DNA of 64,000 bases, from assembly GCF_001293685.1 (NCBI RefSeq), contig NZ_BCAG01000003.1, forward strand, positions 558,001-622,000. Reading direction: 5' to 3'. This document shows, piece by piece, positions 43,459 to 64,000 of the stretch; positions within the stretch are counted from its first letter, which is position 1; the number at the start of each line of letters is the position of its first letter. The notes beneath the pieces are model-generated. The model made no database searches and was not told where the DNA came from. It worked only from the letters and a program-made list of their open reading frames with translations. The DNA is from Desulfatitalea tepidiphila (GTDB lineage: Bacteria; Desulfobacterota; Desulfobacteria; Desulfobacterales; Desulfosarcinaceae). A program made the translations under genes and the position numbers.

Positions 43459-43483
43459 GCAGAAAATTGCAGAAAAATATTGG

Positions 43484-43520
43484 TGGGGCGATCTCCAACA
43501 GGGGGTTGCCCCATTCTTTT
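43484..43520 (+). terminator. Intrinsic terminator after the radical SAM gene
   Basis: TGGGGCGA (43484-43491) with TTGCCCCA (43506-43513), then TTCTTTTT. Confidence 0.7.
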
Positions 43521-43627
43521 TGCACGGACGAGTTTGCAACTGAATACTTCATGCTTCATTCGCGGTAACAAATAAATACAAAAGCAATTATCATTGCTGT
43601 TCATTTCATTTATAGGAGGAGTTAACC

Positions 43628-46110: not shown

Positions 46111-46224
46111 CAGCAGTAAACGAGGGATTGTCCTGAGCGATTAGTCTTGGGATGATCTCTCGCTTATTTGAGCGGATTTTATGCCGATGAGAATTTTGAT
46201 GTGTGAAAATTATAGTAAAAAAAT

Positions 46225-46673
46225 GAAGAGCGTTGCTCTTCCCAAAGCTGCTTGCTGCTAAAAATAATAATCCCCGCAGATTTAGATTAATAAAATTAAA
46301 ACGGATTAAAATGTTTTTAATCCCATAAATAAACTGATTCCAATATCTTACAACGAAAATTAAAAGATTAACTCACTTTATATCCCAAATACTCAAAAGT
46401 ATAAAAATAATACAATATATAAAAAAGCATATATATAGTATAAAAGTTCAGATCTTCGTTAATCTTTTAATTTTTCAACTACTATATTGTTATTATTCCA
46501 AATAATAGATTAAAAGAGTTTTTTAAATAACTTCACATTTTTTAATCTCACCGAGATGGCATCTACAGTTTATCAGCAGCTAATCATTGGTCACATATTC
46601 ATTTATCCTCGTATATCGTCTCAAGATTAAAGTTTTTAAAGCAGCAGCGACTTTGGGAAAAGCAACGCTTTTC
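46225..46673. repeat. Inverted-repeat-bounded AT-rich segment with GATTAA repeats (candidate replication origin)
   Basis: Arms of 34 and 33 nt (46225-46258; 46641-46673) are inverted copies, and each begins with its own perfect 7-bp hairpin: GAAGAGC/GCTCTTC on the left and GAAAAGC/GCTTTTC on the right, a compensated base change. Between them lie eight GATTAA motifs on either strand (46285, 46304, 46317, 46366, 46459, 46508, 46542, 46625), three of them extended to GATTAAA plus a T-run. There is no gene. It sits directly after the primase-helicase gene, as expected for an origin, but a foldback transposon is an alternative. Confidence 0.6.
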
Positions 46674-46851
46674 AAACTATCTCTAAAATGGGTTGCGAAT
46701 ATTAGATTTCAGCTAACCTAAATTATTTTTAATAAATTCGGGCATCTTGCTTAGGGCTATAATTATTATTAAAGTTCTTTTGAATAGTGACGACTATTAA
46801 GAAAAGGAATCGGATATTTGCCAAAAATAAAATGAAAAGTAAGAGGTTTCT

Positions 46852-47385
46852 ATGAAAAACCAGTGCAACAACAAAAAAGTTGAAATTATTGCTGCAGCAG
46901 TGATTAAAAAATTTAAAGAAATGAATGTACCACTTGAAAAGTCTAAGAAAGAAAATAACTATATTTCTCTTTTTTCGCCTATAATGATTTCGGTAGTCGA
47001 TTGCCAGGTTTTAATTGGAATCGATACTAAAAAAGAAATTATAGGTATTAACATACAATATAAAAAGCAGTTAGAGGAAAACGATATACCTATAATGGTT
47101 GAATTTGCAAACTATTATAACAAATTATATTCTACAGTTGGGTTCGCAACTTTTGATCCAGAGAATACTATCATTCAATTTAAGGCAGGGGTTGAATTAT
47201 TTCCGGGCAAAATTGATACTAATCATTTAGAGGCATGTTATAATTCTATTTATAGTGACGCAATTAGATATTTTGCATTTATTGAAAATACGAAGGACTC
47301 AGGTTACAGTGCGAAAGAATTAATGTCGAAATTTTGTGGATACAAAACTGATATCCCTTCAGCCGTAGAAGCCAAAATGAATTAA
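46852..47385 (+). CDS. YbjN / secretion-chaperone-like protein A
   Basis: 177 residues, AT-rich gene, AGAGG ribosome site. The order of strands and helices (IMISVVDCQVLIGIDTKKEI, FANYYNKLYSTVGFATFDPE, NTIIQFKAGVELFPGKIDTN, then a C-terminal helix) resembles the YbjN/type III chaperone-like fold; this is pattern inference without a family signature. It is followed 16 nt later by a second gene of similar layout. Confidence 0.55.
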   Translation: MKNQCNNKKVEIIAAAVIKKFKEMNVPLEKSKKENNYISLFSPIMISVVDCQVLIGIDTKKEIIGINIQYKKQLEENDIPIMVEFANYYNKLYSTVGFATFDPENTIIQFKAGVELFPGKIDTNHLEACYNSIYSDAIRYFAFIENTKDSGYSAKELMSKFCGYKTDIPSAVEAKMN

Positions 47386-47401
47386 TACTTAGGAGATAAA
47401 A

Positions 47402-47980
47402 GTGGACCAGAATAAATTAATGGCAAATACCAAAATGTTAGAAGAATGTTTCAAAAAGTTTGATCTGGAAATTGTAAATAAAAAAAATCAGACTGTTACT
47501 GGTATTAACCATACCGAATTTTCATCTTCCATTTTTGTAAACGGAGCAGGGCAGCAGACGTTCAATGCAAAATATTATCATGAGCTTAATATGATTGAAG
47601 TTTGTTTTTATTTGAAGTTAGACTTTGAATCGAGGCTCAGAGAGGCAATTGCCCATCTATTAAATCTTATTAATTCTTTAAGAAATGACTCTTTTTGGGC
47701 GATTTGCAGTTGCTGCAACGAGATAGAAATGAGATACGCAACTAGGATAAAAGATGTTATTTCAAAAAGCTATCTTGAAAGAATGTTTAAAAAATCATTA
47801 TTCCTTGCAAAAACGTTTACCCCACTGATTCTCCATCTGATCGCATCTAAAGATGATCCATATCAATTGTCGAAGGAATTCTTTTTAAACAATAGATATT
47901 TGGCTATGAGGCGAATTATAGCAAAATACGATGAAAAGAATCCAAATGTTGTCTATATCGATGAAATGGCCCTTGATTGA
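47402..47980 (+). CDS. YbjN / secretion-chaperone-like protein B
   Basis: 192 residues from GTG 47402 with AGGAGA upstream. Layout parallels protein A: strands around FSSSIFVNGAG and NMIEVCFYLKLDFESRLREA, helix AHLLNLINSLRND, strands WAICSCCNEIEMRYATRI, then helices. Low sequence identity to A. Probably forms a unit with A; function unknown. It is the last gene before the IS481 insertion. Confidence 0.55.
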   Translation: MDQNKLMANTKMLEECFKKFDLEIVNKKNQTVTGINHTEFSSSIFVNGAGQQTFNAKYYHELNMIEVCFYLKLDFESRLREAIAHLLNLINSLRNDSFWAICSCCNEIEMRYATRIKDVISKSYLERMFKKSLFLAKTFTPLILHLIASKDDPYQLSKEFFLNNRYLAMRRIIAKYDEKNPNVVYIDEMALD

Positions 47981-48298
47981 ATATTGTGATATGCATATGC
48001 TTCCTAAAGTTTAGATGGACATTAGTAGCTGTATTCTTTTCTATCGGATTTTTTTCACTCATTGCGGCCGCAGATATCCGTCGATGAAACGATAATGAAG
48101 AAATAAAGATCGGCGATGATTCTCCGGTTGGATATCATAAACTAAAGCATTTCACCGGAAGGCGATGAAGAACATGATCGTAAATGATAAAAGATTGGTT
48201 TAGGATCTTTCTGACTATCTTAACATCTTAACTGAATTAGTTAAGATCTTCCCGGACACCTTACCGAAAAAATAGTTTGGAACTCGGTGTAGGGGCGG

Positions 48299-48334
48299 CA
48301 TAGCCGGGGGGACCATAAAATCCCCCCGGCTATG
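48299..48334. terminator. Strong hairpin upstream of the transposase
   Basis: CATAGCCGGGGGGA (48299-48312) and TCCCCCCGGCTATG (48321-48334), perfect 14-bp stem. No T-tract; it could block read-through or sequester the leader of the transposase mRNA. A TATAAT (48357-48362) follows. Confidence 0.55.
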
Positions 48335-48404
48335 GCGGCCCGGTCGCTCTCTCGGTTATAATCGTTGTTGCCCAACAACCAACCGTAACCGAAAGGAGCC
48401 GACC

Positions 48405-49439
48405 ATGACCGCCAAATCCAAATTAGCACAGAAACGATTGACCTTGCTACAGCTTGCCGAAAAGCTCGGAAACGTATCCAAGGCGTGCCAGATGCACAAA
48501 GTCTCTCGAAGCCAATTTTATGAATATAAACGAGCCTTTCAGCTCCACGGGCTGGACGACCTCATAGACAAGCCGCCGATCCCGGGATCGCATCCAAACG
48601 AACTGACCGATGAAGTGAAACAAAAGATCATCGATCTGTCCTTAAAGCATCCAACTTATGGCCAGCAGCGCATTGCCGACCAGCTGGCCCTTGAAGGGAT
48701 CTCAGTGTGTGCCACCTCGGTGCGCAATCTATGGATCAAACAAGATCTGGAAACGCGCTACAAACGTTTGCTGCGCCTTGAAGATGTACACGCTGAAAAA
48801 GGCTTTGAACTGACCGAGCAGCAAATCCGGCTGATTGAAAAGGCCAATCCGTGTTTCAAGGAACGTCATGTGGAAAGCAGCTACCCTGGCCAATTGTTGT
48901 GTCAGGACACCTTCTATGTGGGCCGCTTAAAGGGCGTTGGCCGCATCTACCTGCAAGCAGTGGTGGATACCTATGGCAGCTTCGGCTTTGCCAAGCTGTA
49001 TACCAGCAAGCGCCCAGAGACGGCCGTGGACGTGCTCTATGATCGCGTCCTGCCTTTTTACCAGCAACATGGGCTGCCCATCGAAGCGATCCTGACCGAC
49101 AATGGCACCGAGTACAAGGGCCGGCCGATGATCCACCTGCATGAAATCTTTCTTGAGTTCAACGACATCGAACACCGCACCACCAAAGTGGGAAACCCCA
49201 GGACCAACGGCTTTGTAGAACGATTTAACCGCACATTGCTCGATGAGTTCTTTAGATCCTGCTTTCGCAAAAAACTGTATGAGTCGGTGCAAGCCCTTCA
49301 AACAGACCTGGATGCTTGGCTGCACCATTACAACTATGAGCGCCCCCACCGCGGCTATCGTAACCTGGGGCGCAGACCATTTGAAACCATTGAAAACGGA
49401 AAAATGGAACGAGAAAAAGTGATGGAGAAAGCCGCTTAA
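48405..49439 (+). CDS. IS481-family transposase
   Basis: 344 residues, intact. N-terminal HTH (LLQLAEKLGNVSKACQMHKVS), HTH_29/winged unit (about 60-110), and the DDE integrase core: CQDTFYVGRLKG (first Asp), ILTDNGTEYKG (second Asp), and GFVERFNRTLLDEF (Glu), with RPHRGYRNLGRRP at the end. GAAAGGAG precedes the ATG. Catalytic residues are complete. Confidence 0.92.
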   Translation: MTAKSKLAQKRLTLLQLAEKLGNVSKACQMHKVSRSQFYEYKRAFQLHGLDDLIDKPPIPGSHPNELTDEVKQKIIDLSLKHPTYGQQRIADQLALEGISVCATSVRNLWIKQDLETRYKRLLRLEDVHAEKGFELTEQQIRLIEKANPCFKERHVESSYPGQLLCQDTFYVGRLKGVGRIYLQAVVDTYGSFGFAKLYTSKRPETAVDVLYDRVLPFYQQHGLPIEAILTDNGTEYKGRPMIHLHEIFLEFNDIEHRTTKVGNPRTNGFVERFNRTLLDEFFRSCFRKKLYESVQALQTDLDAWLHHYNYERPHRGYRNLGRRPFETIENGKMEREKVMEKAA

Positions 49440-50494: not shown

Positions 50495-51295
50495 TTATCG
50501 GCCCTTGAAGGTCGGGTTGCGTTTCTCATGAAAGGCTGCCACACCCTCCATTACGTCATCGCAGTAATTGGTCACAAGTGTTCCGAGAGCGGCATCTTCC
50601 AACGCATTTTCGAGATCCATTTGCATCTGCTTGTACATCATCCTTTTTGTGATCCTCATGGCGATTGGAGGGCCTGCGGCGAGTCTTTTTGCCCATTCCC
50701 AGGCCACAGACATAAGATTTTCAACCGTCGTCACTTCATGCACCAGGCCAAGTTCTTTGGCTTTTTGGGCCGGGTAAATTTCAGAAAACAACGACATCTT
50801 CAGCGCATTCGCCAAGCCCATCACCCTCGGGAAAATCCATGCACCTCCTTCGTCTGGCATAAGCGCGAATCTGAGGCTCGTATCGCCCAATTTAGCGCTT
50901 TCAGCTGCAATTCGAAAATCGCAACACAATGCCAGCGTTAATCCCCCTGCAACAGCGGCGCCGTTAATTGCAGCCACCGTGGGTTTATCGAAACGCCAAA
51001 GGAACCTTACTATTTGATGGAAATTTTCGCGCATTTCGAGCATTGATTCAAGACGGTGGCCTCGGTAGCGTTCCGGATATCGATAGTCAGCTGAAACCTC
51101 CCCCCCGGAACAAAATCCACGACCGGCACCGGTAATGATGACCGCGCGCACCTCATCGTCATCGCGTGCGTTCGAAAGGGCCGTTATTATTTCATGAACC
51201 ATGACTTCCGAATAGGCGTTCATTTTCTCAGGGCGGTTCATTGTAATGGTGGCGACGTGCTTCTCCTTTGAGCATATTATTTGGCTATATTCCAT
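50495..51295 (-). CDS. Crotonase-fold (enoyl-CoA hydratase/isomerase family) protein 1
   Basis: 266 residues, GGAGGT ribosome site. Oxyanion-hole motifs GAGRGFCSGGEV and NGAAVAGGLTLAL are present. The two catalytic Glu positions of true enoyl-CoA hydratase are Thr and Ser here. Instead an Asp sits in FALMPDEGGAW, the position of the catalytic Asp in PaaG-type and related isomerases. So an isomerase or other CoA-ester rearrangement is more likely than simple hydration. Last gene of the leftward cluster, 66 nt after crotonase 2. Confidence 0.85.
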   Translation of the reverse strand: MEYSQIICSKEKHVATITMNRPEKMNAYSEVMVHEIITALSNARDDDEVRAVIITGAGRGFCSGGEVSADYRYPERYRGHRLESMLEMRENFHQIVRFLWRFDKPTVAAINGAAVAGGLTLALCCDFRIAAESAKLGDTSLRFALMPDEGGAWIFPRVMGLANALKMSLFSEIYPAQKAKELGLVHEVTTVENLMSVAWEWAKRLAAGPPIAMRITKRMMYKQMQMDLENALEDAALGTLVTNYCDDVMEGVAAFHEKRNPTFKGR

Positions 51296-51361: not shown

Positions 51362-52189
51362 TCACTTCAAGGAGATTTTCTTGAATTTGGGTGGCCGTTT
51401 TTCTATAAATGATGCGATGCCCTCTTTGAAGTCACCACGCACCATGCTTTCCTCCATCAAGTGGGAAGTCTCCTGCATTGCCTCTCCCAACTGCATGTTG
51501 AGGTGCCGGTAAACTTGCCGTTTCATTGCCATCAGAGACATGGGAGCCGTCGTATTTGCCAGATGCTCGATATAATTGATCGATTCCTCGATCAACCTTT
51601 CGGGTTTAAAAACCCGATCCACCAAGCCGATCTGGAAAGCTTCTGCCGCATCCACCTTGCGGGAGCTCCACAGCAGATCGAGCGCCCGCGAAGGATGGAC
51701 GATCCTTGGTAGTATCCAGCTCTGTCCATGCTCAGCTACAAGTCCACGAGGAGAAAAGGATGTCAGAAACTTCGCATTTTCCGAGGCAAATCGCAGATCG
51801 CAAAAAAGAGAGAGTGACATGCCCAGCCCGACGCAGGCGCCGTTTACGGCGGCAATTATCGGTTTTCGAACGGACAGCAAGTAAGTAAGCCCAGGCCCAA
51901 AATTATCACCCATCGTCTTGTCGCCCGGGCTGACCTTGATCGTGTCTGATTGGCTTCCTTTTCCGTCTTGCTGCAGTTGATTAAGTGTATTCATGTCCAC
52001 GCCAGCGCAAAAACCTCTGCCCGCTCCCGTAACGACAATGCCCGTTACATTCTCGAGGCCCTCGGCTTCTTGGACAGCATATCCGAATTCATCGATCATC
52101 GGATAGGTAAAGGCGTTGAGGCTTTCAGGCCTGTTTAGCGTAACAATGGCTGCATGTCCGACAAATTCGAGCTTTATCGATTCGTACAT
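51362..52189 (-). CDS. Crotonase-fold protein 2
   Basis: 275 residues, GGAGG ribosome site. GAGRGFCAGVDMN and NGACVGLGMSLSLFCDLRFA give the CoA-binding and oxyanion-hole parts. The hydratase Glu positions are Ser and Phe; RGLVAEHGQSWILPR has a Glu in the column where PaaG has Asp. A Glu here is typical of a large unassigned subgroup. It acts on a CoA thioester in the cytoplasm; the reaction cannot be named. Confidence 0.85.
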   Translation of the reverse strand: MYESIKLEFVGHAAIVTLNRPESLNAFTYPMIDEFGYAVQEAEGLENVTGIVVTGAGRGFCAGVDMNTLNQLQQDGKGSQSDTIKVSPGDKTMGDNFGPGLTYLLSVRKPIIAAVNGACVGLGMSLSLFCDLRFASENAKFLTSFSPRGLVAEHGQSWILPRIVHPSRALDLLWSSRKVDAAEAFQIGLVDRVFKPERLIEESINYIEHLANTTAPMSLMAMKRQVYRHLNMQLGEAMQETSHLMEESMVRGDFKEGIASFIEKRPPKFKKISLK

Positions 52190-52251: not shown

Positions 52252-53073
52252 TCAACGTCCTGGAAACTTCGGCGGACGTTTTTCAAGAAAGGCTTGTACA
52301 CCTTCTTTGAAGTCTTCCGTCATGCCGCAACGGAGGTGTGTCTCGGCTTCGCGATCCAGCATGGTCCTGAAGTCCGCTGTTGCGGAGAGGTTAATATTGG
52401 CCTTCATGTAGCGGAAACTCGTCTGAGCCCCATGCGCGATGTGTGCCGCCACTTCGGTGACGCGGGCCTGAAAGTCCTCCTGCCGGACCACCTGGTTCAC
52501 CAGTCCTATCCGGTGGGCTTCGGCCGCGTCTATGATGCTCGAAAGAAAAAACAACTCTTTTGCCTTCGGGCCACCCACGTATTGCGCCAGCAACCAGCTG
52601 GTCCCAAAATCGCCCCCGAGGCCCACACTTGCGTAAGCAGCCCCGAATTTGGATTTATCAGAGCAAATGCGCAGATCACATGCCAGGCAGATGCCCAGAC
52701 CCGCGCCCATGGCAGGCCCGTTTACGGCGGCAATCGTCACCTTGGGCATATTGTAGAGTAGCCAGGAAAGCTCCTGTTCCTGCCGCAGGCCGTCGACATG
52801 CTGCTCCAGCGTCGAGCCCGCAAGCAGGTCCCCATTCTCCTTGCCCATCTTGGAAATGTCTCCCCCCACACAAAAGCCTCGGCCGGCGCCTGTTACCACA
52901 ACCGCACCCACATTGGGGTCAACGCTCCACTTTTTTAAAACTTCGATGGCTTGGAACTCCATTTGAGGGCTGAGCGCATTCAGTTTTTGTGGTTGATTGA
53001 GGGTCAACGTTGCTACTCTTTCGTTAACCTCTGTCAGGATTAGATCATCGGGTTGAGCAGGTTTATCTTTCAT
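52252..53073 (-). CDS. Crotonase-fold protein 3
   Basis: 273 residues, AAGGGG ribosome site. GAGRGFCVGGDISK and NGPAMGAGLGICLACDLRI are conserved. The hydratase Glu positions are Gly and Tyr; VGLGGDFGTSWLLAQ keeps an Asp in the PaaG column. Starts about 195 nt after the end of the CoA-transferase pair and ends 63 nt before crotonase 2. Likely part of the same catabolic sequence acting on the CoA ester made by the transferases. Confidence 0.85.
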   Translation of the reverse strand: MKDKPAQPDDLILTEVNERVATLTLNQPQKLNALSPQMEFQAIEVLKKWSVDPNVGAVVVTGAGRGFCVGGDISKMGKENGDLLAGSTLEQHVDGLRQEQELSWLLYNMPKVTIAAVNGPAMGAGLGICLACDLRICSDKSKFGAAYASVGLGGDFGTSWLLAQYVGGPKAKELFFLSSIIDAAEAHRIGLVNQVVRQEDFQARVTEVAAHIAHGAQTSFRYMKANINLSATADFRTMLDREAETHLRCGMTEDFKEGVQAFLEKRPPKFPGR

Positions 53074-53267: not shown

Positions 53268-54608
53268 TCATTTCCGATCTTTCCAAATGTAATCGTTGTC
53301 TGCCCCCAGAGCAGTCATGAGTCTGTTAATCCTGGTTGGAGTTTCAGACATTCGCGGTGGCAGTGCCGGAAGAGTGATAATACCTGCCCCTTGGGCCTCG
53401 ATATCCACAAAGCTTCTGCGTATCTCCCAATGTTTATCCGCCGCAGCTTCCTGAGGGGTTCGCGTTTCGACCACCATTGGAAAACCTTTGGAGCGCAGTT
53501 TATCTCGAGCCGCTTTCGCGCCATAAGCAAACGTCTTGTCGAAGAGTTCTTTACGAGTGAACTTGGCGATTTCTTTTTTTATCTCGCGCTCGAGTTCATT
53601 TAGTTTTTCGGGGTCATCCGCGATTCGATCGAAAAGAAAGCGCCAATCATCTTCCAGATCCCATCTTCCAAGAATTTTGAGCAATCCCCGAAAATCGCTA
53701 TCTGATGAAGCCGCCACGGTCACATAACCGTCCTTGGCCTTGTAATACCCATAAGGGAACAGGCACCAGTCGAAATTACCGATGCGCTTGCGCGGTTCCT
53801 CATTGGTAAAGCCCCATACCAGCGAGAAAGGCTGCCAGGTGGACAGGGCATCATAGGTGGCCACATCGACCATCTGTCCACGACCCGTTTTGATCCTAAA
53901 AAGCAGGGCGGTCAGAATGCCGGCAACGGCAACGGCTGCGCTCGTGTAGGCAGCCGTCCAGATTCCAGCCCTTAAAGGAAAATTGTATGGCTCTGGTGCC
54001 TCAGGACTCCCTGTCAAAGCCGGATATCCGGATTCGGCCTGGGCTGTCAGATCGGTATCCGGAATATTGCGAGCTTCTTTGGCTTTGGAGGTAAAGTGCC
54101 CGTAAGGGCTGAGTGCCGCATAGATCAGGCCGGGGTTGAGTTCACACATACTGCGGTAACCTGCACCGTGAAAATCCAAATAGCCCGGCTGCATTGCATC
54201 GATGACGATATCCGATTTGGACGCTAAACTAATAATTTTTTCCAAACCAGCGGCTTCTTCGATATCAGCTGTAACCAGGCATTTGTTTCTGCTTTCCATG
54301 ACGAACGGGATACCGGCGCCGTTCAGGTATATGCCACTGTAAGTGGCCTCGCGGGCGGGATCTCCGCCCTGGGGTTCGATCTTGATGACGTGGGCACCCA
54401 TTTCGCCGAGCATTGCCCCACATATTAATCCCGGAAAATTGGCGCTTCCCAGTTCGATGACATTCAGCCCATCGAGGGGACCTTTCTTAGCAGCATCCGG
54501 GGCCATCATTTGTTTCAATAGATTGTTGAAGCTGTCCAGGTGATCGCGGGTCTTTTTCCCGGTCATGTGTTTGGAAAAAACTTGTTCTTTTTTTTCCACG
54601 GGGATCAT
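53268..54608 (-). CDS. Class III (CaiB/BaiF) CoA-transferase subunit without the catalytic Asp
   Basis: 446 residues. DGLNVIELGSANFPGLICG, MGAHVIKIEPQGGDPAR, and GILTALLFRIKTGRGQMVDV identify a family III CoA-transferase. In active members an Asp stands about 22 residues before GRGQ. Here that stretch reads RAGIWTAAYTSAAVAVAG with no acidic residue. Its ATG overlaps the stop of the next CoA-transferase gene (ATGA), so the two are coupled and probably form a heteromer, as in BbsEF. It would be the non-catalytic partner. Confidence 0.85.
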   Translation of the reverse strand: MIPVEKKEQVFSKHMTGKKTRDHLDSFNNLLKQMMAPDAAKKGPLDGLNVIELGSANFPGLICGAMLGEMGAHVIKIEPQGGDPAREATYSGIYLNGAGIPFVMESRNKCLVTADIEEAAGLEKIISLASKSDIVIDAMQPGYLDFHGAGYRSMCELNPGLIYAALSPYGHFTSKAKEARNIPDTDLTAQAESGYPALTGSPEAPEPYNFPLRAGIWTAAYTSAAVAVAGILTALLFRIKTGRGQMVDVATYDALSTWQPFSLVWGFTNEEPRKRIGNFDWCLFPYGYYKAKDGYVTVAASSDSDFRGLLKILGRWDLEDDWRFLFDRIADDPEKLNELEREIKKEIAKFTRKELFDKTFAYGAKAARDKLRSKGFPMVVETRTPQEAAADKHWEIRRSFVDIEAQGAGIITLPALPPRMSETPTRINRLMTALGADNDYIWKDRK

Positions 54609-55960
54609 TCCTCTTCTTCACGTTTAAAATTGAACAGACTATCTTTAGCGATATCTATATAGCTGGGCGGACGTTTACCCACCCGGTTGTCCCAGTAGCC
54701 GATAACGCCTTCTTTTTCCAACAGCTGGATCTTTTTTTCAGTCAGACCAAGTCTTTCTTTCAGTATGAGGCGATTGTGATATCCGATAGGTCTTGTTAGT
54801 TGTTTTATCCTTCCTGGTGTTTCGCTAAGTGCTGCGGCTGGCCCCGCCCATGTACCGCGGCCGTACATCGGGTCCTCGAAATCGATAACGCTGCCACGTT
54901 CTTTACGCCACCGATCCGAGACCAGCCGCCAGTCATCCATCACTGGCGATGCTGCGAAGCCATGTTGCCGTGCCGCCGCGATGATTTCCAATTCATCGTG
55001 GTTTTCAATCCACTCCTCGACGCGCTTATTCAAAACATCGGCATTGACCTTTTTTAACCTATCTTTGGTTTCGGCAAATTCGGGGACGGTCGCAAGTTCG
55101 TCCGACCCCATGGCCTTGCATAAGGCTTTGAACTGTTCTGCTGTGGCGACCGCTACTGCAACAAAACGCTCGTCACGGGTTTTGAAAATTCCCGATGGCG
55201 ACATGGTTGGGTCGAAATTGCCGCTCGGTCCTGGTGGGTCTCCGTCGGCGCTCTGGACGGTCCAATGCGGCATGGCTCGCATCAAAGCCTCTGTCTGGGT
55301 CATATCGATGTATTGGCCTTTTCCTGTTTTGTTTCTGTGGTAGAGTGCCGAAAGTACACCGACAGCCCCTAGAATTGCTGGGAAAAAATCTCCGAAGTAG
55401 TCGGGCAGTTTATAAGTATTATCTTCGGAATAGCCTGTTAGTCGCGCCACCCCTGACATGGACTGTGCGATCAGGTCATAGCTGGGGAAGTACCGTAACG
55501 GGCCGTATTGACCATACCCGCTGCAACTGATGTAAATAATGCGGGGATTTATTTTACTGATTGCCGTATACCCCAACCCCCAGGCCTCTATGAGTCCCGC
55601 CCTGAAATTTTCTATGACGACGTCCGCCTGCTTGGCCAGCTCCTTGACCAGCTCTTTGCCTCGCTCTTTCTTCAGATCGATCGCAATGAAGTACTTATTC
55701 GGGTTCAGCGACTGGAAATAAGGACACGAGTCCTTCCAGTATTTACCCCAGTAGGTTCCCGTCCGCCAGTCGTCACCCTCCTCGGGCTGTTCCACCTTGA
55801 TGACTTCTGCACCGAAAATGGCAAGCCATTTGCCGACCATCGGGCCGAAAATCACGCGAGTCAGATCCAGAACCTTTATGTTTTCCAATGCTTCCGGTTT
55901 TTCGTTTATCCGTGCTGCATCGAAAAGCTTCCCTGTATAATCGAAGTAATCCTGTGGCAT
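54605..55960 (-). CDS. Class III (CaiB/BaiF) CoA-transferase, catalytic subunit
   Basis: 451 residues, AGGAGGG ribosome site. IKVLDLTRVIFGPMVGKWLA, FGAEVIKVEQPEEGDDWR, YDLIAQSMSGVARLTG, and DYFGDFFPAILGAVG with the Asp that forms the acyl-enzyme anhydride in the family, then ALYHRNKTGKGQYIDM. Moves CoA between organic acids without ATP. Directly downstream of livF (11 nt), so import and activation of the substrate are joined in one operon. Substrate is unknown; a succinyl-CoA donor is the usual case. Confidence 0.88.
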   Translation of the reverse strand: MPQDYFDYTGKLFDAARINEKPEALENIKVLDLTRVIFGPMVGKWLAIFGAEVIKVEQPEEGDDWRTGTYWGKYWKDSCPYFQSLNPNKYFIAIDLKKERGKELVKELAKQADVVIENFRAGLIEAWGLGYTAISKINPRIIYISCSGYGQYGPLRYFPSYDLIAQSMSGVARLTGYSEDNTYKLPDYFGDFFPAILGAVGVLSALYHRNKTGKGQYIDMTQTEALMRAMPHWTVQSADGDPPGPSGNFDPTMSPSGIFKTRDERFVAVAVATAEQFKALCKAMGSDELATVPEFAETKDRLKKVNADVLNKRVEEWIENHDELEIIAAARQHGFAASPVMDDWRLVSDRWRKERGSVIDFEDPMYGRGTWAGPAAALSETPGRIKQLTRPIGYHNRLILKERLGLTEKKIQLLEKEGVIGYWDNRVGKRPPSYIDIAKDSLFNFKREEEE

Positions 55961-55971: not shown

Positions 55972-56679
55972 CTACAAGCCAAGATAGGCCTGCTTTACAA
56001 AATCATTCTTGAGCAAGTCCTGATTGGAACCTTCTAACACAATTCTGCCGTTTTCCAGCACATAGCCCCTGGATGCCAGCCTGAGTGCTTGGGTGACATT
56101 TTGTTCCGACAAAAGTATAGTGACGCCCTCCTCGCGGAGCTTGGCCAGGGTTGAGTATATTTCCAGCAATATTTTGGGGGACAGGCCGAGCGAAGGCTCG
56201 TCGATCATGAGTAGTTTCGGAAGCGCCATGAGACCGCGGGCGACCACCAGCAACTGACGTTCACCGCCACTCAAAAAACGCGCCTCCTGGGTCAGACGTT
56301 CATTTAGCCTGGGGAAGATCTTATAGATCCATTTTAGTGTCTCGGTCCGCTTTTTCCAGGCTTCATCGCGGCAAGAGGCGCCCATAAGAAGGTTTTCCCG
56401 CACGGTCATATGTGGAAATATTTTACCTCCCTCAGGGACCTGAGTTATGCCGACCGCATACCTTGCACTGGGCGATAAGCCATTAAAGCTTTGTTCTTCG
56501 AAGTGGATTTGACCGCTCATCAGCGGAATCAACCCTGACACTGCCTTTAGAATTGATGTCTTGCCCGCGCCGTTGGAACCGAGTAATGCGACGCATTCAC
56601 CTTCTTTCACGTAAAAACTCACTTCGTGGATGACTTGAATCACACCGTAGGCGATATTTGCATTTTCAATTTTCAGCAA
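55972..56679 (-). CDS. livF: Branched-chain-type ABC transporter ATP-binding protein (LivF)
   Basis: 235 residues. Walker A GSNGAGKTS, signature LSGGERQLLVVARGLM, Walker B LLMIDEPSLGLSP, and the LivF-typical TQVPEGGKIFPHMTVRENL. Peripheral inner-membrane ATPase. Its start overlaps the end of livG by 14 nt. Confidence 0.93.
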   Translation of the reverse strand: MLKIENANIAYGVIQVIHEVSFYVKEGECVALLGSNGAGKTSILKAVSGLIPLMSGQIHFEEQSFNGLSPSARYAVGITQVPEGGKIFPHMTVRENLLMGASCRDEAWKKRTETLKWIYKIFPRLNERLTQEARFLSGGERQLLVVARGLMALPKLLMIDEPSLGLSPKILLEIYSTLAKLREEGVTILLSEQNVTQALRLASRGYVLENGRIVLEGSNQDLLKNDFVKQAYLGL

Positions 56680-57403
56680 TTTTCTCTCCTAAATAGGCCT
56701 CGATGACCATGGGATCATTTACGACATCCAAGGGGATGCCCGACCTGATGAGCTCGCCATGATGAAGCACAATCACACGCTGGGTCGCCTCCATAATGAT
56801 CTTCATGACGTGCTCGATCCATAGAATCGTTACATGAAATTCATCCACCATTTTTCGGATGAGGCGCACTGCTCGTTTGCTTTCGTATTGGTTTAATCCG
56901 GCCATTACTTCATCGACCAGGATAAGCTTAGGGGTCGTGGCAAGGGCTCGTGCCATCTCTAACGCCCTGAGTTCAAAAAGAGACAGGTCGCGGGCCAGAG
57001 TGTTTCGTTTTCCGAAAAGGCCCACAAACTCAAGAAAGTGCGATGCGTCCAGCATGGCATCCCCCAGACTCATGTTCGGCCGCGGCTTTCCGCAAAAGGC
57101 ACCCACCGCTACATTGAGAAGCGCTGTCATATCCGGAAAAGGTCGCGGAATCTGGTAGGTCCTGCTGATACCGCTGCGACAAATCCGATGTGGCTCCCAT
57201 CCTGTGACGTACGTCCCGTCGAATTCGATCCGGCCTGTATCGGGTTTGAAAGCGCCTGAAATGAGATTCATGAGCGTCGTTTTGCCGGCGCCGTTCGGTC
57301 CGATCAGCCCGACGATCTCGCCGGTTTCGATACCGAAGGATACATCGTTGACAGCCACCAACCCCCCGAAACGTTTACTCACCCCCATTGCCTGGAGCAA
57401 CAT
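56666..57403 (-). CDS. livG: Branched-chain-type ABC transporter ATP-binding protein (LivG)
   Basis: 245 residues. Walker A GPNGAGKTTLMN, ISRTYQIPRPFPDMT (Q-loop region of LivG), Walker B LILVDEVMAGLN and H-loop ILWIEHVMKIIME. The signature segment reads LSLFELRALEMARALA rather than LSGGQ, a change seen in some Liv ATPases. It starts 18 nt after livM. Confidence 0.92.
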   Translation of the reverse strand: MLLQAMGVSKRFGGLVAVNDVSFGIETGEIVGLIGPNGAGKTTLMNLISGAFKPDTGRIEFDGTYVTGWEPHRICRSGISRTYQIPRPFPDMTALLNVAVGAFCGKPRPNMSLGDAMLDASHFLEFVGLFGKRNTLARDLSLFELRALEMARALATTPKLILVDEVMAGLNQYESKRAVRLIRKMVDEFHVTILWIEHVMKIIMEATQRVIVLHHGELIRSGIPLDVVNDPMVIEAYLGEKIAEN

Positions 57404-57421: not shown

Positions 57422-58453
57422 TTACTTGCGCACACGCATGGTCGGGTAATATTCCCGATAGCGGTGTTTGCGGTAAATTCCATAGAGCCCCTCGGACAAT
57501 GAAAAAAGAAGGATCATCAGAATGAGCGGGAAAAGGATGTAATTTATCGTACCCGCGAATGTGAGCAATTTTTCGAGGATGACAACGAAATATGCGCCGT
57601 AGATCGCCCCGTAAATGTCGCCCCTTCCACCAATCATGACCATAAGCAGAATCTTCAGCATAAATGGCAACTGGAGGTAAGTGACGCCGGCAAAAGTTCC
57701 AAAGTAATGAGCCGCAAACCATCCAGTTAAAGTGACCATTACGGAGGTAACTACAAAGCTAATGACCTTCCAGAGCTTTATGTTCAAACCGAGGCTCTCT
57801 GCTACGTCTTCATCATCGTTGATGGCTGCTGCATATAGGCCAATCCTGGATGAAAGCACTTTTTGAACAATGACCAGGTAAAGAACCATCATTGCCAGGG
57901 AGATATAACCCATCACGAGATATTCCGCCTTTATGCTTTGCAGCCTGACCAGCGGAGCAATCCCATAAAGCCCGGTCTCTCCCTGGAAAATTCGAAAATA
58001 GTAAGTGACCTCGAGAAAGATCAAGGGCAAGATTAATGTTATTAATGAAAAGTAGAGCCCCTTGGCGATGGTCGTAAGGGGGCTGAGTGCAAGTCCGAGT
58101 AATAGCCCCAAGCAGAAAGCTACGGGCAAGGTCTGCCAAGGCCCCCAACCGAAGTGGACGCTGAGCAAGCCTGCGGCGTATCCACCAAGTCCAACAAAAA
58201 ATTGAGGCCCGAAGTTCATTCGCCCTATACCGGTCATCTGCCAGCCCAGTGGGATTGCGATGCAGGCATATATATTGGCGGTCGCAAATAGGCTTAAAAA
58301 ATCGGCTTTAGAATGAAAAACGAGGGGAAGAGTCGCCAGCAGTGCGATCCCCAAAAGCGGATTCCGCCAGTAACGGGGTTCGATAGGCCATTCAAATTTC
58401 TTTTGACCGAGACGGAAGACCAGCAGCGCTCTCTTATGCTCTATTTTCACCAT
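57422..58453 (-). CDS. livM: Branched-chain-type ABC transporter permease (LivM)
   Basis: 343 residues with about nine hydrophobic segments; MNFGPQFFVGLGGYAAGLLS and the cytoplasmic EAA-like loop GLYAAAINDDEDVAESLGLN are LivM features, as is IGGRGDIYGAIYGAYFVV. Inner-membrane permease subunit. The start overlaps the end of livH by 7 nt. Confidence 0.9.
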   Translation of the reverse strand: MVKIEHKRALLVFRLGQKKFEWPIEPRYWRNPLLGIALLATLPLVFHSKADFLSLFATANIYACIAIPLGWQMTGIGRMNFGPQFFVGLGGYAAGLLSVHFGWGPWQTLPVAFCLGLLLGLALSPLTTIAKGLYFSLITLILPLIFLEVTYYFRIFQGETGLYGIAPLVRLQSIKAEYLVMGYISLAMMVLYLVIVQKVLSSRIGLYAAAINDDEDVAESLGLNIKLWKVISFVVTSVMVTLTGWFAAHYFGTFAGVTYLQLPFMLKILLMVMIGGRGDIYGAIYGAYFVVILEKLLTFAGTINYILFPLILMILLFSLSEGLYGIYRKHRYREYYPTMRVRK

Positions 58454-59319
58454 AATGATTCACTCTTCGCAATTCCTTGAGGTTTAAATAGCAACACGAA
58501 AAACACGATCACCAAGATCGACAGCCCAACGAGCCGCGGGTTGGCGAAAAAAGCCACTGCAGATGAAACAAACCCAACAATAAAGCTCGCCGCCAGGGTT
58601 CCCCGCAGATTGCCGAGCCCCCCCAAAATAGTAACGAGAATCGCCGTCTGGAGCATGGAATGACCCAGTGTGGGTTCTATTGACCAGATGGGAGCGATGA
58701 CCAGCATGCAGACCGTAGGTGGAATAACCGACAACCCCATGGCCAGGGCATAGACTTGTTCGACCTTAACGCCAAGCAACCGCGCTGCCTCGCTGTCCTG
58801 GCTAACGGCCCTGATCTTGTATCCAATGCGTGTCTTCATGAGAAACAAGATGAAGAATGCTGTGATCAAAAGGGAAACAAAGACCATGACGATCATTTGG
58901 GTAGGAATAGTTGTCGTGCCTATCTGGATCGTGTCGGAAAAAATGGAAGTTGGGATATCCACACCGGCGGTAACAGGGTAGAAATGATTGACCGTTTCTT
59001 CCACGATCAAAGCGACCAGGAGCAATGAAGTGAGCAGAAGCTCCTCCTTTTCCATGTAGCGTTTGACAATAGGAAAGTAAACGAGGCCAATCCAAAAGAT
59101 AAATTGAAGAACGAAAACACCAACAATCGATAACGCCAAGCTCAACCCAAAAGTACTTTTAAGCATCCACATCCCGTACACCGCGACCAAGAACGTGGCG
59201 CCATAACCTAGATTGAATATTCTCAAGACACCACATACAAGTGAAAATCCTAAGGAAATCAGAAGGTAAAGCGAGCCAAAGAGAACGGCATAGATCATGA
59301 CTACCAGTAACGTTTGCAT
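58447..59319 (-). CDS. livH: Branched-chain-type ABC transporter permease (LivH)
   Basis: 290 residues from ATG 59319 (AAGGGG 5 nt upstream; a GTG two codons earlier is less well placed). Eight or so hydrophobic segments; IGYKIRAVSQDSEAARLLGV is the EAA-like loop and TILGGLGNLRGTLAASFIVG the LivH C-terminal motif. Partner of LivM in the inner membrane. Confidence 0.9.
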   Translation of the reverse strand: MQTLLVVMIYAVLFGSLYLLISLGFSLVCGVLRIFNLGYGATFLVAVYGMWMLKSTFGLSLALSIVGVFVLQFIFWIGLVYFPIVKRYMEKEELLLTSLLLVALIVEETVNHFYPVTAGVDIPTSIFSDTIQIGTTTIPTQMIVMVFVSLLITAFFILFLMKTRIGYKIRAVSQDSEAARLLGVKVEQVYALAMGLSVIPPTVCMLVIAPIWSIEPTLGHSMLQTAILVTILGGLGNLRGTLAASFIVGFVSSAVAFFANPRLVGLSILVIVFFVLLFKPQGIAKSESLW

Positions 59320-59396
59320 GAGCACCCCTTAGTTTTCATTATTAGGCGAGTGCGGGCGACCCGGCGGTCTCTGATTTCACTTTTCTCGGATTTTTT

Positions 59397-59466: not shown

Positions 59467-60750
59467 TTATTGACCGGCGCGCTTTTTCAGTTCTTTTGAC
59501 CGGATGTATGTCGCCTCGGGATTCGTTATTTTTACCAGCTCCGGAGGATAGACCAGCACGAATTTCCCGTCTTCTTGAAATTGGCCAATCAGTGAAGGAT
59601 GGTAGGGATGACCTTTAAGCGGTTCATGGCGTTCGTCGAATTTCCATTTCCAGAACCCTCGCTGGATTTCAACCTTTTCAAGCGCACTAATGAGTTTACC
59701 CACATCGTTGACTGTACCAGCTTTTTCGGCGGCGCCCTTTACGATCCAAGGACCATCATAGGCACCGTAGGTGGATGCGAGCATTCCGGCCTTCTTTTCT
59801 TTCATTTTTTCGAATAACGTACGGGATTGAGCCGTGAAGGGAATTTCTATTTGGGGCCAATTGGAGGACGCACCCAGGGCTTGCCCACCTGTCATTTGCC
59901 AGAATGCAGCATAGCAGCTGGCTCCGCTCATCAGGATCAGATCAATATCCTTAGCTGCAGATTGGGCCCATTGTTTGGTCAAGGTGACCGTGTCCGAGTA
60001 ACCGGTAAGCCAGTAAATAGTGTCGGCCCCACTCTCGGCTGCTTTTTCCAGCATTGGCAGAAACATTTTTTCTTTAATATCGGTTTCTGCGTAGTAAACC
60101 ACCGGTATTCCTTCCTTTTCAAAGTATTCCTTGAGGGTCGGCAATTTTCCTTTTTCTCCCTTTCGGAACACCTCGGTCCAGCCGATGTCTTCTATCAGCA
60201 GGGCGAGTTTTTCGGAACCGACCGTGTTTTTAAAGAAGCCGGCGGAATCCAGCGCTTTGTTGTAGGCATCTGCTGTGCTGGAATAGACCCGAAAGAGAAA
60301 CTTATATTTTTCGTATTCATCCGCCACAAGGTCGGTTAGCCCAGCGTGTGCGGTCCAGAAAGCAAACTGAAGGTGTGGGTAAGAATTGTAAAGCCGCGAG
60401 GCGACCTGGGCGCAAGCCGTGGTCCCCTCGGTGCCCTCGGTAAACACCAGGAAGCATTTATCCTCCATCACAAGCTTTTTATAGGCTGCGACGGCCAGAG
60501 GGACTTCACGCTTCCAATCCTCAGTGATAAGCTTTACCGGATGGCCGAGAATGCCTCCCTCTTCATTGATTTCATCGATGCTGATCTCAAGTGCGGCCTT
60601 GTTGCTCGCTCCATATGGGGTGGAAAGTGCTCCTATAAATCCAATTTTTAGGGGTTCCGCGGCATTAACCGTATCGATAGTAGCAAACATAGATATACCC
60701 ACGATAAGTAGAACAAAACACACTGTGCCAAATTTGCTTATGGTCCCCAT
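59467..60750 (-). CDS. ABC transporter substrate-binding protein, branched-chain/amide type
   Basis: 427 residues from ATG 60750 (AAAGGAG 7 nt upstream). An N-terminal signal peptide (GTVCFVLLIVGISMFATIDT then VNAAEP) directs it to the periplasm. IKIGFIGALSTPYG-type start (LKIGFIGALSTPYG), INEEGGILGHPVKLITEDW and CAQVASRLYN fit type I periplasmic binding proteins of the HAAT/Liv group. The first gene of the leftward operon and the best candidate for the sigma-54 promoter target. The ligand is not predictable; an organic acid fits the CoA-transferases downstream. Confidence 0.9.
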   Translation of the reverse strand: MGTISKFGTVCFVLLIVGISMFATIDTVNAAEPLKIGFIGALSTPYGASNKAALEISIDEINEEGGILGHPVKLITEDWKREVPLAVAAYKKLVMEDKCFLVFTEGTEGTTACAQVASRLYNSYPHLQFAFWTAHAGLTDLVADEYEKYKFLFRVYSSTADAYNKALDSAGFFKNTVGSEKLALLIEDIGWTEVFRKGEKGKLPTLKEYFEKEGIPVVYYAETDIKEKMFLPMLEKAAESGADTIYWLTGYSDTVTLTKQWAQSAAKDIDLILMSGASCYAAFWQMTGGQALGASSNWPQIEIPFTAQSRTLFEKMKEKKAGMLASTYGAYDGPWIVKGAAEKAGTVNDVGKLISALEKVEIQRGFWKWKFDERHEPLKGHPYHPSLIGQFQEDGKFVLVYPPELVKITNPEATYIRSKELKKRAGQ

Positions 60751-60846
60751 GTCATTCTCCTTTGTAATTTGTGTTTGACTTGCCACCTTTAAACGGAACC
60801 TATAACCAATTTTTTCCTAAATTCATTCATTGAAGCGAATTGGTGG

Positions 60847-60862
60847 GCAGTAACGGTACCAA
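60847..60862 (-). promoter_or_regulatory. Alternative -24/-12 (sigma-54) promoter for the transporter operon
   Basis: Minus strand TTGGTACC-GTTA-CTGCC. Keeps the invariant GG-N10-GC spacing (GG 60859-60860, GC 60847-60848) but departs elsewhere from the consensus. About 97 nt before the binding-protein ATG. Confidence 0.4.
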
Positions 60863-60974
60863 GGTTGAAAAGCTCATCTCTCTGGTATTATTTAAACAGC
60901 ACCAATCCATATTTCCGTATCCAATCCCCCTTTTTTTGGATTAGAGAATCGATATCGTGATTCAACAACACTAA

Positions 60975-60990
60975 AACAATATCCATGCCA
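60975..60990 (-). promoter_or_regulatory. Candidate -24/-12 (sigma-54) promoter for the transporter operon
   Basis: Minus strand TGGCATG-GATA-TTGTT, 10 of 12 positions of TGGCACG-N4-TTGCW, but the -12 GC reads GT. Lies 74-209 bp from the three inverted repeats, the usual distance for a sigma-54 enhancer. Confidence 0.5.
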
Positions 60991-61063
60991 TTCTTGATGA
61001 TTTCCGAAAATGATGCACAACTGCTGCATGGACTACAGGCATGAATTATCCGTCCATTATTCG

Positions 61064-61081
61064 TGTCGCAAAATAGCAACA
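61064..61081. promoter_or_regulatory. Upstream activator site 1
   Basis: TGTCGCAAAATAGCAACA: TGTCGC-N6-GCAACA, one base from a perfect inverted repeat. First of three related sites. Confidence 0.65.
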
Positions 61082-61096
61082 TTTTTGGACCTTCGA

Positions 61097-61114
61097 TGTC
61101 GCATTTTAACGACA
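61097..61114. promoter_or_regulatory. Upstream activator site 2
   Basis: TGTCGCATTTTAACGACA: TGTCGC-N6-ACGACA. Starts 33 bp after site 1, close to three helical turns. Confidence 0.65.
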
Positions 61115-61181
61115 TATAAATATATCTTAATCTCTGAACCATTTTTTCTATTTGAATTTTATGCTAAAATAAAAAAAATTA

Positions 61182-61199
61182 TGTCGCAATAACGCGACA
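61182..61199. promoter_or_regulatory. Upstream activator site 3
   Basis: TGTCGCAATAACGCGACA: a perfect TGTCGC-N6-GCGACA inverted repeat, 85 bp (about eight turns) after site 2. Confidence 0.7.
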
Positions 61200-61562
61200 A
61201 CTTTGTTAAACTTTTTTTAGGATTTCACCGCGCCGCCAGCGAAACTGGAGAGACAGATGGGGCTTTAAAGTGGCTAATTCGAACCAATCCGCCATTGGCA
61301 AGACCGTGATAAAGCCATGGATGCAAGTGAAATGGAAATTCGTAAGGGTACCGGGTAAATTCGTTTTTGATTTTTGTCAGAATGGCGGTTAGAAATTAAA
61401 TGTAGTTTCCTTTGTTTTATGAGGTCCAATTGTCAAGATATCCATATATCAGAAAAAAATGCCCATAATATATTATGACTAAACGTATTTATAGTGGCAT
61501 AAATTTTGTTTCAAACTTTACTGCGGTGACCATAGAAAAAGGCTAACTTTAGGATAAAAGGA

Positions 61563-63521
61563 TTGGGATCTGTCGTGGGTGAAGTTCAAAATATTTGGAA
61601 ATCTCTGCGTAAAACCGGCCATTGCGATGGTATTACCATAACGCCGGAAATCAGAGAGTCTTGGTCACGAAGCGAAAAATATGGGGTTGATCCATATAAA
61701 CGTTATTGCGACGTGATCGTCTCTCCCGAAGAACTTAAAGAGAGGAGACATCGAAATAGTTTTTTAATGGAACAGGCAGCCGTGATGATGTCCCATCTCA
61801 ACCAGTTTGTCGAGGGAACCGATTTCGTTTTTGCCCTGGCCGATCGCGACCTAGTCATTCTCTCCCGGGTGGGCGGTCAAGGTGGGCTTGATTTTGCTAA
61901 CCTCGCCAATTTCGTGGAGGGAGCCGACTGGTCAGAAAAAGTCATGGGAACAACTCCGGCAGCCATTGCCCTTATCCTAAAAAAACCAGTTCAGTTTATT
62001 GGCTATGAATCATTTTGTCGAGTGGCTACCTTTGGCTGCGGCTGTGCATCCCCGATTTTTGACAGTGAGGGGGAGATCCTTGGATTCCTCACTGTCGCCG
62101 GACCGCAGCACCTTTTCAATCCTCACACGCTGGGTATGGCGGAGGCGGCAGCACGAGCTATCGAGCACCAGATGGCCCTCCTGGATTCATGTCAACAAAG
62201 TGAAATGGCCAACCTTCATAAAACAACCATCATGGAATCCATGTCTGAAGGTGTCTTAACGTTAGATCGCAATCACAGAATTACCCATATCAATATGATT
62301 GCAGGCAGAGTTCTGGGGATCGATTCAGCAAAGTCGGAAGGTAAAGCTCTTGAGAACCTGATGCCTCCCGGCAATGAACACTTTCTTTCCAAGCTATTCA
62401 GTAGCAAGAGACTTTCCGCAGAGCCTTTGTTGATCCGCAAAAAGGGAAAACTGGAAAAATTGGCCGTCAGTTCTACTGCTTTAATAGGACAAAATGGCAG
62501 GATCCTTGGCACGGTTGTCATCCTCCAGCCTATGAAACAGTACAAACAATTGATTGAAAGAGTCTCGGGAGCCCGCGCCAATGTTACTTTCGACCAAATC
62601 ATAGGCCAAAGCCGTGAATTTACATCTGCCTTATCCTATGCCCAAAAGGCTGCCGACTCAGACTCCAACGTGCTTTTGCTGGGTGAGAGCGGAGTAGGTA
62701 AGGATTTGTTTGCCCAGGCGATTCATAACGCCAGTGATCGTTCTAAGGAACCATTCTTTGCTATTAATTGTGCTGCGTTGCCCAAGGAACTCATATCCAG
62801 TGAGTTGTTCGGCTATGAAGACGGAGCATTTACCGGTGCACGAAAGGGAGGAAATCCCGGTAAATTCGAGCTGGCTGACCAAGGGACGGTCTTTCTTGAT
62901 GAGATTGGAGAAATGCCGTTGGACATGCAGGCCTCGCTGTTGCGATTGCTTGAGGAAGGGACTGTCGTTCGACTGGGAGGCAAAGAGGTGATTCCGGTTA
63001 ATGTGCGAATCATCGCCGCCAGCAACAAAAACCTATTGGAGGAAGTCAAAAACGGCAATTTTAGACTCGACCTCTATTATCGACTGGGGGTCATGGATAT
63101 CAGAATACCTCCCCTGAGAAACAGAAAGGATGATATTCCAGGATTGGTAACCCACTTCATAAAGTCAATCGGTCCTAAGCTGGGTAAATCGGTTCTTGGT
63201 GTTGATGATAAGGCAATGGCCTTGCTGCTGAATTACGACTGGCCTGGTAACGTGAGGGAGCTGAGCAACGCCATTGAACGCGCCATCAACCTCTCCTCGA
63301 AGACTTTGTTGACGGCAGACGATTTTTCTCTGGAGATAGGAAAACAAACACAAGCAGTCCCAGCGAGTATGGACTTTAGAACCACTAAGATGAACATGGA
63401 AGATCAGTTGATCAGGACATGCCTGCTAAAGCACAACAATAACCGGGTCAAGGCGGCCGAGGAACTGGGAATCAACCGAGCTACACTCTATAGAAAAATG
63501 GCAAAGTATTCTATCAAGTGA
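61563..63521 (+). CDS. Sigma-54-dependent transcriptional activator (GAF-PAS-AAA+-Fis)
   Basis: 652 residues from a TTG with AGGA 8 nt upstream. An AcoR-like N-terminus (ITPEIRESWSRSEKYGVDP) and GAF-like domain (about 60-215, with FGCGCASPIFDSEGEILG), PAS domain (about 225-335, MEGV..TLDRNHRITHIN type), AAA+ domain (about 345-570) with Walker A GESGVGKD, the sigma-54 contact loop GAFTGAR (near 421) and DEIGEMPLDMQ, then a Fis-type HTH (NNRVKAAEELGINRATLYRK) at the end. Divergent from the transporter operon, whose upstream region carries three matching inverted repeats. The GAF or PAS domain probably senses the catabolic substrate. Confidence 0.93.
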   Translation: MGSVVGEVQNIWKSLRKTGHCDGITITPEIRESWSRSEKYGVDPYKRYCDVIVSPEELKERRHRNSFLMEQAAVMMSHLNQFVEGTDFVFALADRDLVILSRVGGQGGLDFANLANFVEGADWSEKVMGTTPAAIALILKKPVQFIGYESFCRVATFGCGCASPIFDSEGEILGFLTVAGPQHLFNPHTLGMAEAAARAIEHQMALLDSCQQSEMANLHKTTIMESMSEGVLTLDRNHRITHINMIAGRVLGIDSAKSEGKALENLMPPGNEHFLSKLFSSKRLSAEPLLIRKKGKLEKLAVSSTALIGQNGRILGTVVILQPMKQYKQLIERVSGARANVTFDQIIGQSREFTSALSYAQKAADSDSNVLLLGESGVGKDLFAQAIHNASDRSKEPFFAINCAALPKELISSELFGYEDGAFTGARKGGNPGKFELADQGTVFLDEIGEMPLDMQASLLRLLEEGTVVRLGGKEVIPVNVRIIAASNKNLLEEVKNGNFRLDLYYRLGVMDIRIPPLRNRKDDIPGLVTHFIKSIGPKLGKSVLGVDDKAMALLLNYDWPGNVRELSNAIERAINLSSKTLLTADDFSLEIGKQTQAVPASMDFRTTKMNMEDQLIRTCLLKHNNNRVKAAEELGINRATLYRKMAKYSIK

Positions 63522-63554: not shown

Positions 63555-64000
63555 CTATGCCCGTCTTGCCAGAACTTTTACACCATATGTCTCTATAGTT
63601 TGCCTTAATTGTTCCATCTGATCCCGTTTGGGAGGCTCAGTATCTCTAAGCAAATAATCTCTACCCATTCGAATATACGTATTCAGGCCAAATTGATGAT
63701 ATGGGAGCAGCTCTATCTTCAGAAGATTTTTTCCGAGGCCGGATGCAAACTTCGCAGTGGCTTTGATGTTGTCAACATTATCATTACATCCAGGGATCAC
63801 AGGGACACGAAGGATCAGGGGCCGAACTTGGGCAACCCTTTGTGCATTCTTTAATATCAGGTGGTTTGAGACCCCGGTCAACTCACGGTGGCGCGTGTCG
63901 TCCATATGCTTGATGTCCATATAGACCAAATCCAAGTGCTCGAGGAGGCTTTCCAATTTTGCCTGTTGGCAATACCCACAGGTTTCAATTGCCGTGTGAT
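63555..64000 (-). CDS. Glycyl-radical-enzyme activating protein, C-terminal part (runs off the window)
   Basis: The frame is open to the window edge; the visible part starts with HTAIETCGYCQQAKLE and continues HLDLVYMDIKHMDDTRHREL, VRPLILRVPVIPGCNDN and ELLPYHQFGLNTYIRMGRDY, the conserved second half of PflA-type radical SAM activases. These install the glycyl radical on a partner enzyme. The cluster cysteines and any ferredoxin-like insertion lie beyond the window, as may the glycyl-radical enzyme itself. Convergent with the sigma-54 activator. Confidence 0.88.
   Translation of the reverse strand, partial: HTAIETCGYCQQAKLESLLEHLDLVYMDIKHMDDTRHRELTGVSNHLILKNAQRVAQVRPLILRVPVIPGCNDNVDNIKATAKFASGLGKNLLKIELLPYHQFGLNTYIRMGRDYLLRDTEPPKRDQMEQLRQTIETYGVKVLARRA

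Follow-up and report, generated by a model that had tools for sequence, protein, structure and literature searches.

The locus studied here raises the question of what switches on a transporter-catabolic operon of Desulfatitalea tepidiphila that diverges from the gene of a sigma-54 activator, and whether three inverted repeats lying between the two could be the sites through which this activator works. Both the operon and the activator gene lie in the window, by which we mean the whole stretch of DNA analysed (64,000 nucleotides).

Palindromes and a promoter-like element upstream of operon A

Operon A comprises ten genes on the − strand to the left of the repeats, and their strand and gaps suggest that they are co-transcribed. 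For its first gene, the ATG at 60750, which is preceded by AAGGAG, was preferred over the listed GTG at 60786. The features of this part of the locus are:

50495–51295, 51362–52189 and 52252–53073, − strand: three enoyl-CoA hydratase-family proteins
53268–54608 and 54605–55960, − strand: two class III CoA-transferases (PF02515)
55972–56679 and 56666–57403, − strand: two ABC ATPases
57422–58453 and 58447–59325, − strand: two branched-chain-type permeases (PF02653)
59467–60750, − strand: periplasmic binding protein (PF13458), gene 1 of operon A
60975–60990, − strand: -24/-12-like element of operon A, TGGCATGGATATTGTT, identical at 15/16 positions to L009:9135–9120 (see below)
61064–61081, no strand: site 1, TGTCGCAAAATAGCAACA, centre ~108.5 bp upstream of the inferred start at 60964
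61097–61114, no strand: site 2, TGTCGCATTTTAACGACA, centre ~141.5 bp upstream of the inferred start at 60964
61182–61199, no strand: site 3, TGTCGCAATAACGCGACA, with perfect 6-bp arms, centre ~226.5 bp upstream of the inferred start at 60964
61563–63521, + strand: sigma-54 activator of 652 aa when read from the listed TTG, with GAF, PAS, AAA+ (with GAFTGA) and Fis-type HTH

A scan of the 64-kb window for TGTCGC-N6-RCRACA with 0 mismatches returned three matches, beginning at 61064, 61097 and 61182, and no others; these are the same three repeats that a previous reading, made from the sequence only, had pointed out. In the 776-bp intergenic stretch (60787–61562), three exact + strand dyads were observed against a mean of 0.0001 in 20,000 mononucleotide shuffles. 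At ≤2 mismatches the window holds 31 strand matches against 16.6 expected (none of 100 dinucleotide shuffles reached 31), so that loose dyad matches turn up often and the exact ones alone are informative. The three palindromes are genuine and well beyond chance at these positions. Their start-to-start spacings of 33 bp (sites 1–2) and 85 bp (sites 2–3) equal 3.1 and 8.1 helical turns of 10.5 bp, which confirms the near-integral helical spacing proposed earlier for the first two and places all three roughly on the same face of the helix.

The activator gene encodes the domains of a sigma-54 activator (PF00158, 227.2 bits, cut-off 20.2; HTH_8, 47.4 bits, cut-off 22), with GAFTGA present in the translation, and the genome has one rpoN match (455.9 bits, cut-off 277.35). 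The sigma-54 consensus used for scoring was TGGCACG-N4-TTGCW. The sequence-only reading had indicated two -24/-12 candidates facing the operon, and both are present on the − strand. The one at 60990–60975 has 2 mismatches (shuffled mean of 0.03 for 2-mismatch sites in the intergenic stretch; four such sites in the whole window) and is conserved in the second region described below, but TGGTACCGTTACTGCC at 60861–60846 has 4 mismatches, at which level 3 sites were observed against a shuffled mean of 1.1, and the 15-column windows over it contain only 2–4 identical positions in the alignment of the two regions. This second promoter was rejected as chance-level and unconserved. The element assigned to operon A was chosen from these two candidates with the second region in view.

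A second region before the glycyl radical enzyme operon

The 18-bp motif had also been put forward as searchable genome-wide. The scan did turn up a second region, about 8 kb away and before the operon of a glycyl radical enzyme (GRE), but single sites of any core at ≤1 mismatch were near background (25 genome places in the forward count against 19 in the reversed control), so a single-site scan alone would mislead. Region B has two dyads with AT-rich cores, at C3:627242 and C3:627328 (L009:9242 and 9328), and a degraded third, in the same order as in region A. Its features, together with those of operon B, are given in coordinates of locus L009, to which 60000 is added for the window scale:

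L009:3555–4472, − strand: GRE activase, 3' part in the window at 63555–64000
L009:4611–6179, − strand: AMP-forming CoA ligase of operon B, outside the window
L009:6436–8937 (window scale 66436–68937), − strand: GRE of operon B, outside the window
L009:9109–9345, outside the window: region B
L009:9209–9226: counterpart of site 1, 14/18 identical, offset as in region A; degraded, with 3 half-site mismatches
L009:9242–9259: counterpart of site 2, 17/18 identical, offset as in region A
L009:9328–9345: counterpart of site 3, 14/18 identical, its distance to the promoter element longer by 1 bp

Counted upstream with the last base of the promoter element as reference, the starts of sites 1, 2 and 3 are 89, 122 and 207 bp away in region A, and 89, 122 and 208 bp in region B. 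Repeated dyads some 80–250 bp upstream of the promoter are therefore found in both regions (three in A, two plus a degraded one in B). The -24/-12-like element of region B, TGGCACGGATATTGTT at L009:9135–9120, has 1 mismatch to the 16-base consensus, and in both regions the element reads GG-N10-GT, with GT and not GC as the -12 dinucleotide, a departure from the GG-N10-GC of -24/-12 promoters that may weaken the promoter. The -24/-12-like sequence common to the two regions, TGGCAYGGATATTGTT, has two exact copies in the 5.6-Mb genome, only these two; at 2 mismatches there are seven other genome matches and three in the reversed control.

When the two regions are aligned, the four elements (three sites and the promoter element) are identical at 60/70 positions, compared to 139/266 for the other upstream columns (Fisher p = 1.1e-7) and 70/174 downstream of the inferred start. 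This test is biased, since it was sites 2 and 3 that led to region B, which makes their identity ascertained, and since the promoter element was picked with region B in view. With these two left out, site 1 and the promoter element are identical at 29/34 positions (p = 1.4e-4), and site 1 alone at 14/18 (p = 0.03). The order of the elements, their near-identical spacing and the location before the neighbouring operon were not used in finding region B.

The resemblance could also be the trace of an intergenic duplication only, with the sites being functionless relics in one or both regions. The other upstream columns are indeed more alike than the downstream ones (139/266 against 70/174, p = 0.009), so that common descent accounts for some of the resemblance, and site 1 of region B is degraded. 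However, the elements are far more alike than their surroundings, also without sites 2 and 3, and the spacing has been preserved through diverged sequence, which makes this explanation very unlikely.

Two further readings concern the function of the sites themselves. Firstly, site 3 might be an intrinsic terminator, or the sites might be RNA hairpins and not protein sites: on the − strand, site 3 gives a 7-pair stem followed by TAATTTTTTT, which passed the terminator scan (two terminator-like matches, shuffled mean 0.7). Yet the T run of region A is absent from the region B counterpart, the scan reported nothing terminator-like at sites 1 and 2, one sequence pattern is common to all three sites, and Rfam returned 0 families at the gathering threshold over L009:700–9800, all of which leaves this reading hardly any weight. 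Secondly, the sites might mainly serve the activator's own + strand promoter; a weak -24/-12-like match, TGGCATAAATTTTGTT, is found at 61495–61510 before the activator gene. This match has 3 mismatches (shuffled mean 0.22 in the intergenic stretch), while region B has the sites with no activator gene beside them, and it is to the operon promoters that the conserved spacing refers; as the main role of the sites, autoregulation is extremely improbable. Autoregulation through the 61495–61510 element in addition to operon control is possible.

The most likely explanation, to which we assign a probability of roughly 0.78, is that the palindromes serve the adjacent sigma-54 activator as upstream activating sequences, through which it would switch on operons A and B together. 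The enhancer layout that the sequence-only reading had proposed for the activator and the divergent operon is supported, and strengthened by its second copy before the GRE operon. The Fis-type HTH of the activator would bind the palindromes as dimers, and its GAF/PAS sensor part would meet an inducer, probably the substrate or an intermediate of the pathway. The AAA+ part would then assemble on the sites, the DNA would loop, and the activator would remodel the sigma-54 RNA polymerase held at the promoter-like element of operon A, starting its transcription. The same protein, placed between its two target operons, would act on the homologous region B and start operon B, so that uptake, CoA activation and radical chemistry would be induced jointly. 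Against this explanation stand the GT at -12 in both copies, the degraded site 1 of region B, the ascertained identity of sites 2 and 3, the lack of the site pair at the activator homologue loci examined, and the different activators found beside the closest GRE relatives. All the direct support for the dyad scheme comes from one genome.

Specificity of the site pair in the genome and beside activator homologues

The pair formed by sites 2 and 3, searched as GTCGC-N6-RCGACA followed after 55–80 bp by GTCGC-N6-GCGACA, has two matches in the genome, which are regions A and B. Among the other 388 genomes of a 389-genome sample of the class this pair pattern gave 0 matches; its reversed control gave 0 in the source genome and one match in one other genome. 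Exact half-sites occur at nine distinct genome places, four of them in the cluster (reversed control 1). The others were considered as extra targets and rejected: C1:756597, C1:1039847 and C3:2629219 fall inside ORFs of ≥80 aa, and C3:2028673 and C3:2515725 lie outside such ORFs but have no -24/-12-like element or second site (each at ≤3 mismatches) within 400 bp.

Restricting the core to A and T gave, at ≤2 mismatches, 17 forward and 10 reverse matches against 8 and 13 in the reversed control, that is, near background. At ≤1 mismatch five places remained, the four of the cluster and C3:2072295, inside a 535-aa ORF (L027:8557–10164, G000:C3). By eye this ORF resembles a HisH-HisF fusion, and its motif match is taken as a chance one; such fusions are known from eukaryotes. 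A single dyad with a non-AT core (AGTCGC-TTTGGG-GCGACA) was seen at C1:677428 (L003:1501–1639, G000). A -24/-12-like sequence, TGGCATACCGATTGCT, whose inferred start lies ~140 bp downstream of this dyad, precedes an ORF which by eye resembles a TauE/SafE exporter. As a third target this place is possible but unlikely.

The best full-length identities of activator homologues were 39% among 60 relatives, 46% among 389 genomes of the class and 46% among 395 of the phylum, with only the top candidates scored per genome and the 46% homologues coming from one genome each. Homologues were also present in 53 plasmid records, all below 60% identity (37.6–38.9% for the eight listed). Beside the homologues, TGTCGC dyads were absent apart from the window's own copy (loci L009–L026 and L038–L043, and the 20 loci L017–L020, L022 and L044–L058), and the site pair was absent at every homologue locus examined. 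Outside the own region, L009–L026 contain scattered 2-mismatch matches only, three of them in L012, within the GRE/activase coding region of that locus. The HTH ends of the homologues that were read differ from that of this activator (L047 has no readable HTH end, and the end of L058 is not an HTH). The dyads in the gaps of 12 further loci (L059–L070) have no common motif by eye.

Dyad arrays of other sequence were seen at two of these loci. L040:7555–7660 (G017:C45) has TGTAA-N7-TTACA-like dyads at 7555, 7626 and 7644, each with a single arm mismatch, in the gap that separates an activator homologue from a TRAP transporter-like operon, so that the multi-site layout is kept with a different motif. 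Several TGTTC-type dyads occur near the homologue of L051. Such TGT...ACA arrays agree with the general scheme and are not evidence for the TGTCGC motif.

An alternative is that the palindromes are operators of another protein, be it a CRP/FNR-class regulator, a repressor or another sigma-54 activator. CRP/FNR-class proteins also use TGT...ACA dyads, the genome has at least 21 matches to sigma-54 activator-like proteins at the default threshold (scored among 20 of 92 candidates), and the motif is not kept beside the homologues of this activator. On the other hand, sites of CRP/FNR/CooA are dyads of 14–16 bp positioned around -41.5 or -61.5 relative to sigma-70 promoters, whereas the present dyads are 18 bp long and lie ~108–227 bp upstream of the inferred start. 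Enhancers typically lie 100–230 bp upstream, a distance at which sigma-70 activators do not usually act, and the region has no more sigma-70-like matches than expected by chance (2 against a shuffled mean of 3.2). The activator gene is adjacent to the sites, and in the 389-genome sample the pair pattern occurs only before the two operons that flank this gene. Another protein is thus an unlikely user of these sites, and we retain the adjacent activator as their probable binder.

The activator and the glycyl radical enzyme in relation to known systems

The DhaR model spans residues 23–651 of the activator with 387.3 bits (curated cut-off 551), and the PrdR model gives 388.2 bits (curated cut-off 795). 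The GAF-PAS-AAA-HTH order is common to DhaR, PrdR and this activator, but the targets differ and the scores remain below the curated cut-offs. AcoR activators have the same order. None of the best 25 of the 38 matched NCBIfam families reaches its cut-off. The DhaR sensor structure 4lrx aligns with residues 22–268 (E = 2.1e-17).

In the available text of a study of Desulfovibrio vulgaris (PMC4641369), three activator motif groups have TGT and ACA 9, 11 or 12 bp apart, most sigma-54 activator regulons comprise one to four operons, promoters most often lie <100 nt from the nearest site, and two activators adjoin pyruvate formate-lyase (GRE-type) operons. The present system is alike in its TGT-N12-ACA form, its two operons and a promoter-like element 74 bp from the nearest site, and differs in the full motif and the target genes, as far as that text shows (PMC4641369). 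The D. vulgaris motifs rest on cross-species conservation, whereas the present one rests on two copies in one genome (PMC4641369). In the Clostridiales, according to the text available, fifteen activator groups including PrdR have TGT/ACA repeats with a 10–12-bp spacer, the prd operon is preceded by multiple PrdR sites, and the DhaR and AcoR groups have a domain order like that of this activator but different motifs (PMC6615313). By architecture, the present sites would belong to the published TGT-N10-12-ACA sites of sigma-54 activators, a well-known type of switch. A literature search over the titles and abstract starts listed, which is a weak test, gave no description of this motif or regulon, and the available text of PMC3543383 and PMC4630880 has nothing on the motif.

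The activase of operon B is over the cut-off of the GRE-activating subfamily (334.2 against 174.35). The GRE itself matches nine NCBIfam families at E ≤1e-20, each below its cut-off (the best with 559.2 against 678.2). Its GCNE aligns with the GCVE of glycerol dehydratase, choline lyase and hydroxyproline dehydratase, and, in the two alignments displayed in full, its RVAGY with the reference RVAGY. It thus has the C-x-E motif of dehydratase/lyase-type GREs. Its relatives include one of 60% identity from a Syntrophaceae genome, and two Lokiarchaeia genomes encode relatives of 52% identity, which suggests transfer between domains. The nearest ones (60% in the Syntrophaceae, 64% in a same-genus genome) adjoin different activators. 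In the same-genus genome (L038:6972–12039, G001:C97), two tandem GREs (64% and 47%) and an activase are accompanied by an activator homologue (38%) that is divergent; nearby genes look by eye like those of a CoA ligase and a Liv-type transporter. This is a related cluster under different sites.

A broader proposal, which we consider evenly balanced, is that the activator stands outside the named families with its own class of sites (TGTCGC-N6-GCGACA with an AT-rich core), and that its two-operon regulon serves an undescribed anaerobic pathway. This pathway would combine a GRE outside the named functional classes with the CoA ligase, two class III CoA-transferases, three crotonases and a dedicated importer, acting on a substrate not yet linked to GREs. 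If this holds, two neighbouring operons are joined in a single regulon without recourse to expression data, with promoter and sites named, and an unassigned GRE is linked to a specific importer and CoA chemistry. Co-induction would narrow the search for the substrate, for which the sensor part of the activator could be used as a screen.

By eye, mobile-element-like ORFs flank the catabolic cluster on both sides (window 39347–49439 and L009:9735–14285), primase/helicase-like and transposase-like on one side and single-strand-binding-like and helicase-like on the other, and for this reason the cluster may be an island.
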